Origin: Schoenoplectus triqueter
Taxonomy: Eukaryota; Streptophyta; Magnoliopsida; Poales; Cyperaceae
DNA length: 64,000 nucleotides
Assembly (NCBI GenBank): GCA_964058805.1
Contig: CAXKVV010000246.1
Coordinates: 62,001 to 126,000 of the forward strand
Direction: 5' to 3'
A program made the translations under genes and the position numbers. The notes under the pieces were generated by a model. That model searched no databases. It was not told where the DNA came from and was given only the letters and a program-made list of their open reading frames with translations. Every line of letters starts with the position of its first letter. Positions within the stretch are counted from its first letter, which is position 1. Of this stretch, positions 1-5,714 are shown piece after piece.

Positions 1-171
1 TTATTACGAATTTTAAGAGTATGTCTAAGGCTATAAATAGACTTGTATTCTGTTATATGCAAGTAATAGAGAAGAGAAAAAGTGTAAGAGAAATAGAAGA
101 TATAGTTTGAATAGAAAGATATTTCAGAATTGTTCTCTCTTCCTTCCACCGAGATATATCATATTATAACA
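1..171 (+). mobile_element. 5' LTR (3' part only) of a short Copia-like/TRIM element
   Basis: The window opens inside an LTR. A TATA box (ctataaatag) is at 31-40, the LTR ends in CA at 171, and a primer-binding site follows three bases later. The 5' part of the LTR lies outside the window. Similarity to the proposed 3' LTR at 953-1381 is limited to the TATA region and a few blocks, so pairing of the two LTRs is an inference. Confidence 0.7.
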
Positions 172-952
172 AAGTGGTATCAGAGCCAGGTTCAGTCGAT
201 CAAGAAAGACCTGTCATGGCGAAAAAAAAGAAGAAGAAAAAGAAAAAAAAGAGATGTTGAAGAAAAAAATATGGTGAGTCTCGATTTTTATTTTAAAGAA
301 AGTTAAGTGTTAAGAATATTTTCTGAGTTTATTTTAGTATATGAGTTTTTCTGTGTTGTTAGGAGCATTGAAAAAAAAATTAAATCTCCTTATTTTATTT
401 TTTATGAGAAAAGAAAAAGTGTCGGAAAAATATCATGTGTTAAAAAAGAGGAGAAAAAAAGAGTGGAGATAGTTTTAGAGGAAAAAAAAAGAAAATTTGT
501 CAATGATGAGAGTTATGTATCAAGCAGCGAATGTTACAAAAGCGTGGTGAAGTTTTTGCCAGTGGTCTTCGAAGAATCGGTGAGTGAAGCCGACATGAGC
601 AATGATTCATGATAGTCTGTGCAATGAGTGCCAGGATAAGAGAACTAGCAACATTATGAGATGTTTTGCTGGAAGTGTGTGAAGACCATGAGAAGATGTG
701 GTGTGGTGCCACATGGAAAAAAATACGGTGTGGAGCCGCGGTGTGGGTGTGAATCTCACATATACATGACCTGAAGAGTCAGACAAATTGGATGGCATAT
801 GAGATGAAACCACGATTGATTTTTTGAATTTCCTATATCAATAAATCGAGAAGAAGCCGTCAATGAGTGACGTCGCTATTCGCTGTGAGTTATAAAAAAA
901 TTCAATGATGATTGGCATGAAGGATGAAAAAGAAATTAAGTTTAATAGGGGG
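172..952 (+). mobile_element. Non-coding internal region of a short LTR element
   Basis: About 780 bases separate the primer-binding site from a purine-rich stretch (ttaataggggg, about 942-952) that resembles a polypurine tract just before the 3' LTR. The first 200 bases are A/G-rich. No gag or pol similarity is visible, and the 101-codon open frame at 307-612 has only low-complexity Lys/Glu/Ser content. The layout fits a non-autonomous TRIM/LARD-like element. Confidence 0.55.
175..190 (+). other. Primer-binding site, initiator tRNA-Met type
   Basis: The sequence tggtatcagagccagg follows the LTR end after a 3-base gap. It matches the usual plant LTR-retrotransposon primer site complementary to the 3' end of initiator tRNA-Met and fixes the element's orientation as plus. 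Confidence 0.9.
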
Positions 953-1381
953 TGTTGAAATATAAACTTAATTTTAGTATTAAAGTTAAATAAATTAGGA
1001 AATAAAGGGAGACTATTTTGCTTCAGCACTTTTGCAGAATTTTAAGGCTGATTAATGACAGCATTTGAAGGGGCAAATGGACGTGGAATTTAGTGTATGA
1101 CCTATGGATGGAAAGCTATTGAAGTCTATTCCAATGGTTCAAATATCAAGTCATTTGGAGTTCCCTACATAGAGTTATGGTGATTTTAGTGAAAGGGTAT
1201 CAGCTGAAATGGTGCTGTTTAGAATTCTGTTATTATTATATTTTTTTATTATGAATTTCTAGAGTTTTCTCAAATGTTTAGGCTATATAAAAAGTTATAT
1301 TTTGTTGTTTTGTAAGCAAGAAAGATACAAGGGTGTCTAATAGAAAGAAATCTTAGTTTATCCATCCCTTCGCTTTTAACA
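953..1381 (+). mobile_element. Putative 3' LTR of the short LTR element
   Basis: The segment starts TGTTGAAATATAA right after the polypurine-like run and ends with CA at 1381. It has a TATA-like block (ggctatataaaa, about 1281-1292) in the same relative region as the first LTR. Length is 429 bases. The end overlaps by two bases the 170-base repeat that starts at 1380, so the exact boundary is uncertain. Confidence 0.5.
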
Positions 1382-1548
1382 GAGAGGAAGAGAGAAATAA
1401 GAAGAGTAGAATAGAGAGTTTCTGCTGAGAATAGATTAAGAATAAAAGGGATTTATACTGAAATAGCTAAGAAAAGTAGTATAATTTCTGAAATAGAGGC
1501 TGGATAAGGTGCATAATGTCTGAAATAGATGTGAGTCTAATTCCGCAG
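1380..1548. repeat. 170-base direct repeat, copy 1
   Basis: Nearly identical in the same orientation to 2485-2654. The two copies bracket the captured host-gene pieces. In the minus orientation copy 2 is the leader just after the primer-binding site of the minus-strand element, so copy 1 looks like a second leader copy placed after the captured cassette. Confidence 0.85.
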
Positions 1549-1549
1549 C

Positions 1550-1740
1550 TTTTGGTTTCAGAGCAGTAGCCTTCTTTGGCTTGGCAAGAGACATCTTGGC
1601 TTTGGGCTTAGCTGCTGGTTTGGATTTGGTTTTAGCATCTACCTTGGCTTTGGATGGTGAAATCACATATTTTGTAACATTTTCCTTTAGTTTCATGCTG
1701 GTCTTTGGCTTAGTGGTTTGGCAGGTATAAATTTTGGTTT
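1550..1740 (-). pseudogene. Histone H1 C-terminal tail fragment
   Basis: Minus-strand translation gives a Lys/Ala/Pro-rich tail (for example KPAAKPKAKMSLAKPKKA) typical of the basic C-terminal domain of plant linker histone H1. The globular winged-helix domain is absent. A frame change lies near 1690 and the piece joins directly to a CutA fragment on its 5' side. It is a captured, non-functional piece inside a retroelement. Other Lys/Pro/Ala-rich proteins are possible, but the repeat pattern is most like H1. Confidence 0.7.
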
Positions 1741-1744
1741 AACA

Positions 1745-2045
1745 CAGGTTGCAAGTTTTTCCTTGACAATGCTCTCAGAAAGTTTCTTACCCGCCTCTTT
1801 ATTAGGAATGGTAACATAGACAATAATAAAAGGAACCGTGGTGGAAGAAGTATCCATTCTAGTCGAGTGAAGAGCTCCTTTCCTGAAGGCAATGGTAGAG
1901 AGAGCACCGATGTTGAGCACGCACAGAGCTCGGACAAATGGAGATCGGCGGTGCAGTAGCGAGACTGGAGAGGAAGTAGAAGCTTCGTGAGACCCAGCGG
2001 AGGAGGAGAGAGAGGTGCTAGCGAATTGCTTGCACCCCTTGAAAT
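1745..2045 (-). pseudogene. CutA (divalent-ion tolerance-like) N-terminal fragment
   Basis: The translation contains [19 protein letters not shown] followed by [11 protein letters not shown], the hallmark first strand and helix of plant plastid CutA. It is preceded by a Ser/Leu-rich, transit-peptide-like stretch. The match stops after the ATCV segment, where the frame runs into histone H1 sequence; the remaining trimer core of CutA is missing. No intron is seen within the piece, which suggests capture from mRNA. It is fused upstream to a ribosomal protein L35 piece. Confidence 0.85.
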
Positions 2046-2089
2046 CGCGCGCTTCCAGAAGCTTCCTAGCGACACTGATACAGTGGTAT

Positions 2090-2302
2090 GCTTCCTATCA
2101 ATGGGGCCCGCCAGCGCTGCCTTCTGCTTTTGAGAAATGACGGTCAAAACCCTAGCGATCGACAACCTCACCACCTTAATCTTCAATAGTTTGGTCGGGG
2201 CAACGCCAATGACTTTAGCAACGTGGAGGAGAGAGAGCTCTCCCTTGATATCGTGAGCTGGGCAAGCAACTCCTGCTTCGTCTTGCACCTCAGTTCGTGC
2301 TT
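2090..2302 (-). pseudogene. Ribosomal protein L35 (eL29/uL29 family) fragment
   Basis: Minus-strand frames give a [18 protein letters not shown] start, then [14 protein letters not shown] and [20 protein letters not shown], matching the N-terminal two-thirds of plant 60S protein L35. The frame shifts between the two parts, and the match ends near QKAAL, where CutA-derived sequence begins. The Arg/Lys-rich C-terminus is missing. Sequence upstream (2303-2484) resembles a plant 5' leader. Confidence 0.85.
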
Positions 2303-2484
2303 GTTTGTCTTAGAAGAATCGAACAGGAGATAGCCAGTTGATTCACGCCAGTTGATGCGTAAGAAATCGCCAGTTGAAGAGAGGAGAGAAGCAGCGAGAA
2401 ATTGATTTCTTTATCCTTTCTTGATCTTGATCTTGATTGAAGAAATAAAAATGTGATCAGATTGTTTCCTGATCAGTGGAGAAG

Positions 2485-2654
2485 CAGAGAGGAAGAGAGG
2501 AATAAGAAGAGTAGAATAGAGAGTTTCTGCTGGGAATAGACTAAGAATAAAAGGGATTTATACTGAAATAGCTAAGAAAAGTAGTATAATTTCTGGAATA
2601 GGAGCTGGATAAGGTGCATAATGTCTAAAATAGATATGAGCCTAATTCCAGCAG
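2485..2654. repeat. 170-base direct repeat, copy 2
   Basis: Partner of 1380-1548, with only scattered substitutions and one or two single-base indels. It lies six bases from the minus-strand primer-binding site, so it is probably the native leader of the minus-strand LTR element. Confidence 0.85.
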
Positions 2655-2659
2655 TTAAT

Positions 2660-2673
2660 CTGTTCTGATACCA
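2660..2673 (-). other. Primer-binding site of a minus-strand LTR element
   Basis: Read on the minus strand the site is TGGTATCAGAACAG, directly abutting the LTR end TTATTTCA. The first ten bases match the initiator tRNA-Met primer-site pattern. Confidence 0.85.
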
Positions 2674-2882
2674 TGAAATAATAAGAGAATGAGAGAGAGA
2701 ACAATCTTTTGATTATCTTGAAGTTAATTGATTATAATGTTTAAACCTCTATTTATAAGCTAATAATCTAATAAACTAACCATTTAATCTAACTAACTAA
2801 TTTTATTACTAAACATCTCCCACATCATATCTTTCACAATATCTCCTATACAATTCTACTAATCTCAACCTATACTCTAACA
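2674..2882 (-). mobile_element. Short LTR (209 bases) of the gene-capturing element
   Basis: On the minus strand it begins TGTTAGAGTATAGG and ends TTATTATTTCA, with a TATA box (TATAAATAG) near 2747-2756. The small size and the immediate primer-binding site fit a TRIM or short non-autonomous element. The matching second LTR was not found in the window; it may be lost or lie beyond the left edge, with the plus-strand element at 1-1381 nested in between. Confidence 0.75.
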
Positions 2883-5714
2883 GATTTTGATATATTGTTC
2901 TTGTGATCATTAAACATGCTTCGGCACACATTGTTTGCATGTCTTTTACCTGATCTGATTAATTTCAAATAGTGTTAGACTGATTTGTATTGTACGTAAT
3001 TATACGGTGACAAATCATATCAGTAGTTTGGCGTGTATGAGCTGAATATGATGACTATATATTATACAAAAGATATAATGTATTATATAAAAGCATGACA
3101 CCTAAATATATATACTACATTTTGGAGAACTCAAACAAATTGGATTAAATGTTTTGTATTGTAGTTTGGATTTAAAAGAGTTTTGAAATATTTGTAATAA
3201 TTGTTGTGGTTTTTTATTACCGTGTAAAAGAAAAGCAATTGGCGAATGCACTAAATATTGTACATCTATTTGGGGAGATTAGGAGCAAATCCATATTAAT
3301 CTGATCCAATTAGAAACATAGCAACATGTAATATATACTAAGTTCAACAAAATGATTGAAAACTGTGCACCGATAGTATGCAAGTTTTAAATGGATGAAC
3401 AGATGATACATATACTAAACCGTTGGTTTTAACAACAGATAATTTTGTAAAGTGTTTTGACCATTGCTCTTTCATGTCATTTACACTATTCAACTCAACA
3501 ACAAAGATGAAACAATCAAGTCACTTTTCAATTTACATAAGTTTTTTTTATGAAAAAAGATTTACACAAGTGAAATTAAGCATAAAAATGATCCTGTGAG
3601 AAATAAGAGTCCGCCATATTTGAAAACATGCCAATATCATTAACAGGAGTGCAAATGTAAAACAATGGAGAAATTATTAGCACAAATACATCAAATAAAC
3701 ATACAGCAATTTGCATTCACAATACTTAAGAAATCAAGGAAATCTTATGGAAGATTTGGTGGTAGGAAGTATGTTGCACAATCTATGGGTTTTATTTCAT
3801 GCATTGATTACTGCAATCTGAAAAATATGAAGCATATTTCTCAGAAAAAAAAATTTGTCCACCTGCAAAAATTTGCGTAAGTAGGTCCTCATAGATAGGA
3901 TAGTACCTGGCCATCTGGAGATGCAGCAAGGTAAAGAATCTATAGTAACTGTCATCTATCAAAGCTGCTAACTAAAAAGAAAAAAAAAAGGAACTTGAGT
4001 TATATAGAATGCTCTTTCATGGTTTCGATCTTATTCTGACAATTTGGCATATCTCAAACTCCAAGTGTTTATATCTTTGCCGCGGAAGGTACTTCTACAC
4101 CATGATTTGATTCTGAGAGTACCCATTAGTAGTAACCAGCTCATTTGCATTCTTGCATGAGCCAGATGCAGACCTAAAAATTTGCAAATGTTTCCTCATA
4201 GTATGTTTCTATGAAAAATTTGCAGTGTCATATTTCTTAATGACACCAAACTTCCTGATATTTGCAAATAACAAGAGCATAATTTGTAGTTAATCAGAAA
4301 ATCTCAGCAAAACATGACAATGCACTTACTTTACCAAGTAAACCATCAGAAAATTGCTATGTTGCCATTGAGAGTTAGTATTAAGACAACCAAATCGCTT
4401 CATATTTTACAGGGTAGCACTTTGCACAACATAATGTGCATTCAACAATTAACCAAGTAGCAAAATTAATGTGTCAGGAGAATAAAAAGAAGACGAGATG
4501 TGCTCAGAGTCAACTAAAAATCATTTGAATTTATATTAATTATTTTCTGACCTAGAACTAAACTAGTTCAGCTTTTCTGAAATTAGTGTACAAGTAAAAG
4601 TTGAAATGCTTTTCGTTTTGCAAAATAGCAATTTTTAACTCCGCGATCAATAAAATTATTGGCGAACATTTTTAAAAATGAAACAAAAAATATATATATT
4701 ATGAATAGTAACAAAAGATGGAATTGGTCAAATCTTTTTATTAGGTTTTTAACATATGAAAACTCCATAGTCAGCTTACCAAAATGACTGAGAGGTGGCT
4801 TGATTAGAAAATTTTAATATATTAAAAGTTAGTAATGCTACGAATATAAAGGTTTGAAGTCATTTCAGATAATCCCTAATTAAGTCTAAATAAAGTGTTA
4901 AATGCAGAATCATGTGCACAAGTTCTCCATAAAACCCAAGTGTTAATTATGTGGGCTCCAATTTGGATATGATGAGAATGATAGTGATTTTTGAGGAAGA
5001 AATAGTTCAATTGATTACCCTTCAAAATGCATTGTTCTGCTATAAACTTTGAAGAGAGAACCTTAAGGGCAACTCTGGTACAATGATCAATAATTTTGCC
5101 AAAGGGTTTGATCACATTATTGGAATTATCAACGTTTCACAGATGGCACTCTTTATCATATATCAATTCCCCTATTCCAATGGAATACTAGTTTTCAACA
5201 ATCTCCCGTACCAATGAAATCAAATATCACAATAAAACAAACCCAAAAGAGAAAGTGGAGCCACAGAGAAGTAAAATCACACCAAATATATTGTAAAGCA
5301 CATTGAGTGCCGTTAGAGATTTACAAAAATAAAATAAAATAAAACATCTTATAGATGAACAAACAGACACTTTGGACACTCCGTCTATACATGCACTCGA
5401 AGGTAACTATGCACCTTTAAACTCTATTTACCCTCATATTCCCATAAAAGAATAAAAAGTTATGGTAAAAAAAGGGGGGAAAAGAAGAAGCTCACAACCA
5501 AACATGTGGGCTTATGGAGGAGAAAAATATCCAAAAGATTTTGTTTATGAAATAACCCAAGCAACCAAAACTACAACATAAAAAATTATAAATTCAAACT
5601 AAAAAGATCCTATTTTAGCTGATTCAAAACCTAAGTCGTGGCTCCCATGAACCACGAATGAAGAGCGCTCAAGCATGCCCAACCTAGGAGGAGCGTAAAT
5701 TTTCAGCTCCATTT
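2883..5714. other. Intergenic and villin 3' flank
   Basis: No gene recognised. The region is AT-rich. The stretch just below 5715 should contain the villin 3' UTR (minus strand). Small open frames here show no family likeness. Confidence 0.5.

Follow-up and report, generated by a model that had tools for sequence, protein, structure and literature searches.

A non-autonomous LTR retrotransposon of Schoenoplectus triqueter carrying pieces of four host genes in a tandemly duplicated cassette

A complete non-autonomous LTR retrotransposon was identified on the minus strand of contig C241 of the Schoenoplectus triqueter assembly (C241:60104-64882, 4,779 bp). Its 5' part lies in the window, that is, the whole stretch of 64,000 nucleotides that was analysed (C241:62001-126000), while genome searches ran over the 82.1-Mb assembly. 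Read on the minus strand, the element consists of a 209-bp 5' LTR, a primer-binding site (PBS), a leader, a cargo of host-gene pieces, a polypurine tract (PPT) and a 211-bp 3' LTR, and it is flanked on both sides by the target duplication AAATC (Table 1). The two LTRs show 18 mismatches over 199 aligned positions and two gaps, and their sequence is matched at many loci of the searched assembly. The PBS, TGGTATCAGAAC, is presumably of the initiator tRNA-Met type, and the purine-rich GAGAGGGGA (PPT) stands before the 3' LTR. A preliminary description of this DNA had correctly placed a small LTR (2882-2674) and a PBS (2673-2662) beside the gene pieces. The span that it assigned to the element (1380-2882) is only the 5' part, the 3' LTR lying outside the window, and the stretch that it read as an LTR (1380-1544) is instead a second copy of the leader, at the start of a tandem duplicate.

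Table 1. Features of the element and of the insert nested in it (positions are those of the window unless a contig is named)
Feature	Position	Strand	Basis or remark
Target-site duplication, 5' side	2883..2887	-	AAATC; same 5 bp after 3' LTR, C241:60099-60103
5' LTR, 209 bp, TGTTAGAG...TTTCA	2674..2882	-	Direct repeat of 3' LTR
Primer-binding site TGGTATCAGAAC	2662..2673	-	Read directly after 5' LTR
Leader R, first copy of duplicated unit	2485..2649	-	95% direct repeat of 1380-1544
Rest of leader or insert, ~180 bp	2301..2484	-	No match outside the two units
RPL35 piece, parts of two exons, intron absent	2121..2300	-	C638 exons; PDB 3e-15
J-domain/AT-hook gene piece, from just after start codon	2022..2120	-	C1137 L031:2362-2460, 81%
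CutA piece, transit-peptide-like region and N-terminal part of mature protein	1741..2021	-	Rice CutA, Pfam
Histone H1 piece, lysine-rich tail, one exon	1546..1738	-	C800 L032:3133-3326, 93%
Leader R, second copy, start of tandem duplicate unit	1382..1544	-	Unit resumes at C241:61705 past nested insert
Nested small LTR element	1..1381, part outside window	+	LTR pair 89%; ends and duplication read
Nested element, PBS	175-187	+	
Nested element, LTR, one of pair	953-1381	+	LTR pair 89% identical
Nested element, target duplication GAGAG (CTCTC on minus strand)	1382-1386		
3' LTR, 211 bp	C241:60104-60314, outside window	-	Direct repeat of 5' LTR

The paired LTRs, the PBS after the 5' LTR, the PPT before the 3' LTR and the 5-bp duplication are the marks of an LTR retrotransposon. 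TRIM elements have short LTRs of about 100-250 bp, a range into which both LTRs fall. Their internal region is also very short (about 100-300 bp), and the internal region here, at about 2.7 kb without the nested insert (by subtraction), lies outside that range. The proposal that the element is "very short" does not hold, since it measures about 3.1 kb even once the nested insert is subtracted (4,779 - 1,676 - 5). It lacks gag-pol: the sole frame of at least 170 aa between stops in L034 is a 199-aa cargo frame, and the 192-aa ORF inside it matches only Ribosomal_L29 in Pfam. Leader R is conserved in the family, relatives matching to about element position 400, while the genome search and the family relatives gave no match to window 2301..2484 beyond the two units. 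The predicted RNA fold of the leader is unremarkable (z -0.42), and no Rfam family reached its threshold in the element region.

Four donors are represented in the cargo, all in sense orientation and in the order RPL35, a J-domain/AT-hook gene, CutA and histone H1 from leader to tail. The RPL35, CutA and H1 pieces had been described as lying head to tail on one strand, and they do so over about 755 bp (window 2300-1546, minus strand); the J-domain gene between RPL35 and CutA had been missed. The RPL35 piece (Pfam Ribosomal_L29, 1.5e-7; plant 60S L35 in the PDB, 3e-15) aligns to two exons of the RPL35 gene on C638 (L030:1943-2065 and 2166-2222), with identities of 76% and 89%, and the 100 bp between these exons are missing from it. 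By its sequence, at least this piece is derived from spliced RNA. Differences from the C638 gene fall at 25 of 60 third codon positions and at 10 of 119 first and second positions. Since the exon identities are this low and the differences lie mainly at third positions, the donor was probably another, functional RPL35 paralogue and not the C638 gene itself.

The J piece (99 bp, 81% identity, E=3.4e-18) begins just past the start codon of a gene on C1137 and corresponds to part of an uninterrupted 534-aa frame there. The parent ORF matches AT_hook (5.5e-5) and, below the cut-off of that family, DnaJ (0.001), and its protein is 76% identical to that of Carex rostrata, 66% to that of Rhynchospora pubera and 44% to that of Juncus effusus. 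Inside the RPL35 reading frame, the J piece is read in a frame that differs from that of its own gene. It differs from its parent at 7, 2 and 10 sites by codon position, which would place it between the pattern of a functional paralogue and that of drift after capture. The CutA piece (Pfam, 5.3e-5; P0001 against rice CutA 2zom, 1e-11) opens with a transit-peptide-like stretch and goes on to cover residues 1-39 of the rice CutA structure; family and protein searches of the 82.1-Mb assembly found no CutA gene outside element copies. The H1 piece is 93% identical over 194 bp to one open exon of a gene on C800, whose ORF is a linker histone (Linker_histone, 6.2e-16). Its differences (5, 7 and 1 by codon position) are distributed as drift after capture would lead one to expect.

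The joins between donor pieces are abrupt, as had been stated. The RPL35-J join reads GCAGCGC, a 7-nt match that is also present in the J gene; this sequence fits QKQKAAL as found in a plant RPL35 and differs from the C638 gene. Microhomology at this join, the only one at which it is visible, may therefore apply to an RPL35 donor that is not among the genes found. The claim that the pieces are free of introns stands for RPL35, the one donor in which splicing can be checked (one intron, one of four donors) and in which the parental intron was not kept. Against the possibility that one contiguous host gene encodes all parts speak the parents found for RPL35, J and H1, which lie on three separate contigs (C638, C1137 and C800; contigs are not chromosomes). 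From the contig sizes seen and the conserved genes not found, the 82.1 Mb are probably only part of the genome, so that failure to find a parental gene does not point to its loss.

Leader and cassette are tandemly duplicated (94% identical), with a nested LTR element between the two units. At a spacing of 1,105 bp, the leader copies show 9 differences over 170 positions, and an alignment of the units shows 47 over 933. All joins among the four donors recur in both units, and the captures therefore preceded the duplication; unit 2 reaches further into H1 before the tail. Changes between the units are spread over the codon positions (RPL35 4, 4, 2; CutA 5, 6, 4; H1 2, 3, 2), frames are shifted by indels, and unit 2 carries a stop in its RPL35 piece. 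Because the changes are even over codon positions and 39 of the 47 are transitions, no coding constraint is apparent on the cassette from these comparisons. The nested element (1,676 bp, C241:61706-63381) is oriented opposite to its host element; its LTRs measure about 430-470 bp and are 89% identical, with differences at 27 of about 347 positions.

Within the 82.1-Mb assembly the cassette was found at this one locus only. Outside it, the RPL35-J-CutA joins occur in P0066, a 165-aa protein with the source 'jgi' on two contigs that are probably metagenomic, as they are short (the longest being 4,046 bp). Across the RPL35-J join, P0066 matches the element at 91% identity over 94 residues, and its CutA part is 90% identical over 61 residues to unit 1 and 96% over 72 residues to unit 2. 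The fusion thus exists in other data, whether at the same or at another locus, and other copies of it, one of the points raised by the preliminary description, are met outside the assembly and not within it. In another family member, a 104-aa cargo frame (L047:2473-2784) matches the JGI protein P0065, also on short contigs, at 99% identity over 66% of the frame; from this match, JGI metagenomes probably contain DNA of the host or of a close species.

The element belongs to a family, many loci sharing its LTR or tail, as the idea of a retroelement would have it. A search with the tail returned at least 41 matches at 40 or more loci, this element included, of which at least two are short (46 and 102 bp). 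Sixteen family loci were fetched, again counting this element, and cargo was read in ten (L041-L046 were left out). The LTR was present in all nine relatives examined, the leader in eight (not L039) and the tail in eight (only its last part in L049). Their middles are mostly different: the exceptions are a stretch of about 170 bp common to L035 and L048 and stretches of 54-63 bp common to two further pairs. The 5' end of L040 is cut by a contig end, and the eight other two-LTR copies have a total length of 1.26-2.3 kb. Among 15 copies, target duplications are a perfect 5 bp in nine, match at four of five bases in three and have unresolved edges in three. LTR pairs of these copies are 86-100% identical, and some copies are recent, since identity reaches 100%. 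A 1.26-kb copy (L039:1561-2823) has a shortened 5' LTR directly followed by cargo, with no leader match; the family match ends inside the LTR, where the cargo starts, the structure that a faulty template switch would produce.

Recognisable host-gene cargo was found in six of the ten copies examined first, this element among the six. The others carry TFIIF-alpha (L035; 1.2e-4, below the Pfam cut-off), NDUFB7 (L036; 9.9e-12), HSBP1 and ABCE1 (L037; 1.3e-13 and 1.9e-9), NDUFS7 and a snurportin-like gene (L038; 5e-13, and 84% to C310, the latter named from what its parent on C310 matches at 0.011) and a glutaredoxin-like gene (L039; 4.9e-8). A PDB search did not recover the TFIIF-alpha match, and a protein search of the assembly for it gave only element copies; likewise, a DNA search of the assembly for parents of the L035, L036 and L037 cargos returned only other family loci. 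No host genes were recognised in L040, L047, L048 and L049, L047 having one homologue without a name. In a strand control on the nine relatives (Pfam, E<=0.01), 4 of 62 sense ORFs had matches against 1 of 36 antisense ORFs, counts that are not clearly different; the sense matches ranged from 1.2e-4 to 1.3e-13 and the best antisense match was 0.0045.

A second set of nine loci, found by sequence shared with the first copies and so biased, was read in sense frames only. PGDH (6e-11) and NDUFB7 (6.6e-9) were identified in L052, and a 68-bp NDUFB7 piece that is 97-99% identical to L036 in L053 and L054. L061 carries a bromodomain (3.3e-5) and, below its cut-off, Myb (9.8e-5); L060 is related to it by eye, two of its frames giving no match. 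A stretch in L067 and L069 is 78-80% identical to the snurportin-like piece of L038, and no host gene was recognised in L051 and L062. The cargo reading excluded L055-L058, L063, L064, L071, L072 and, beyond its DNA match, L068. Pfam matches above 0.01 (LRR 0.073, copia gag 0.012, PHD 0.022 and others) were not counted as donors. Over all examined copies there are 13 named donors, all in sense orientation, with the second set read in that orientation only. The NDUFB7 piece is 97-99% identical in L036, L052, L053 and L054, and the cargo beside it differs among L036, L052 and the pair L053/L054. L047 and L062 share 1,066 bp at 98% despite different LTR regions; exchange between elements is supported by such copies, which share cargo under different LTRs.

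The best reading, and a highly probable one, is that of a non-autonomous LTR retrotransposon whose cargo arose by serial template switching onto host mRNAs, in agreement with the capture proposed in the preliminary description. It is supported by intron loss, sense donors, abrupt joins and the complete set of LTRs, PBS, PPT and target duplication. Proteins of an autonomous partner would have packaged the element RNA together with host mRNAs. The reverse transcriptase, moving 3' to 5', may have quit the element RNA near the tail, copied host mRNAs and then re-entered the element RNA in the leader. The four donor pieces would have been brought together over successive rounds or by several jumps within a single round. 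The tandem cassette could have come from a jump between two co-packaged copies or from unequal exchange after insertion, and another small LTR element would later have inserted between the two units. Against this reading stand the demonstration of splicing for one donor in four, the lack of a CutA gene and of an autonomous partner among the sequences found, and the four of ten copies without recognised host cargo. The partner was not recognised in a domain scan of a few frames of at least 170 aa (up to three per fetched locus). A 242-aa open frame beside the NDUFB7 piece of L053 (L053:1551-2276, minus strand) has a weak copia gag match (0.012, below the cut-off) and is a possible lead to an element supplying the packaging.

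Read-through transduction, in which neighbouring genes co-transcribed with the element were copied, is a recognised route for Bs1 and TRIMs according to the accessible text of a review (PMC13317346), but the three parental genes found sit on three different contigs and the cargo lies between leader and tail, not beyond a terminus; we consider it improbable here. Capture at the DNA level in the manner of Pack-MULEs or Helitrons, with LTRs framing the cargo later, is less probable still: multi-gene chimeras are common in such elements (the same review), yet the RPL35 intron is missing and the LTRs, PBS, PPT and 5-bp duplications are those of an ordinary LTR element. Equally remote is an assembly artefact, which a fragmented assembly and repeats might favour, as the RPL35-J-CutA joins recur on the other contigs that encode P0066 and both local units share their joins. 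It is very unlikely that the fusion has become a working chimeric gene (RPL35-CutA-H1) that selection maintains. A single frame does stay open in P0066 from RPL35 across J into CutA, and the CutA-H1 join is likewise in frame over a few codons, but the evenly spread and mostly transitional unit differences, the frame-shifting indels and the stop in unit 2 speak against it; the fused product is most likely neutral cargo, without sign of a coding function here.

Unequal exchange after insertion, in place of reverse transcription, as the source of the tandem duplication is a variant of the template-switching explanation, and we put its chances somewhat below even. Divergence is lower between the units than between the two LTRs (56/1119, 5.0%, against 18/199, 9.0%; Fisher p=0.03), which favours it, but the nested insert must postdate the duplication and its LTRs nevertheless differ more than the units do (p=0.06). 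Divergence thus varies from one sequence to another and does not order these events.

Multi-gene capture by LTR elements is already known, from a three-gene TRIM (PMC4717578) and from maize Bs1 (PMC13317346), and these precedents qualify the earlier suggestion that a capture of three donors is rare. According to the accessible part of the report by Gao et al. (2016, PMC4717578), the soybean TRIM GmaRetroS15 holds exon pieces of three host genes without introns, and it and the gene-carrying TRIMs of soybean and Medicago resemble the present element in being small LTR elements with 5-bp duplications and intronless exon pieces. The sedge family differs from what is described there in its four donors in one copy, its tandem cassette, its different donors in the same slot across copies and its greater total length (1.26-4.8 kb, compared with 1.17-1.45 kb for the gene-carrying TRIMs). 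Bs1, as outlined in the accessible text of the review (PMC13317346), likewise combines pieces from three host genes in an LTR element; it gave a transcribed and translated chimeric gene, whereas no coding constraint was seen here. In rice and sorghum, host genes also lie inside LTR elements, and the accessible text of that work, a genome-wide list, describes no shared leader-tail slot with exchangeable multi-donor cargo (PMC3726574). Pack-MULEs and gene-carrying Helitrons resemble the family in their many copies with chimeric host-gene pieces (PMC13317346), but these are DNA elements that can capture introns too, whereas at least the RPL35 piece here comes from spliced RNA. What is new is the combination of four donors, a tandem cassette and a recurrent cargo slot; such an extent within one family was not met in the searched literature, as far as its text was accessible. 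No such family in sedges came up in the open-access literature searched, a search that addressed Cyperaceae only narrowly and left most subscription papers outside.

We tentatively suggest, at close to an even chance, that this is a dedicated gene-shuffling LTR family of sedges, in which leader and tail would be recurrent landing sites of the reverse transcriptase and the middle an exchangeable slot, whose content is renewed from host mRNAs and moves between LTR subfamilies. If so, each lineage would acquire a multi-gene chimera of its own, and an open fused frame like P0066 would arise occasionally. What is known of gene capture by LTR elements comes mostly from isolated cases and from lists compiled genome-wide. 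A family that combines constant ends with some recent copies and with host-gene cargo that varies among many of its copies would let template-switch sites and mRNA packaging be read, and it would also show the rate of cargo gain and exchange and the frequency of fused frames.

Some further features were observed among family members. L049 and L052-L054 have an extra 3' region with a repeated unit of about 80 bp before the 3' LTR, forming a second LTR subfamily. L052 (on C766; LTRs 98.6% identical) lies between exon-like stretches of a host gene and is apparently intronic, as judged by eye. At C156:1717-10080, the LTR-leader and tail matches are nearly 8 kb apart, and a gypsy-like antisense frame seen by eye between them is probably a nested insertion. 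At L045:1-2870, a long array of tandem repeats of about 180 bp adjoins a family member.
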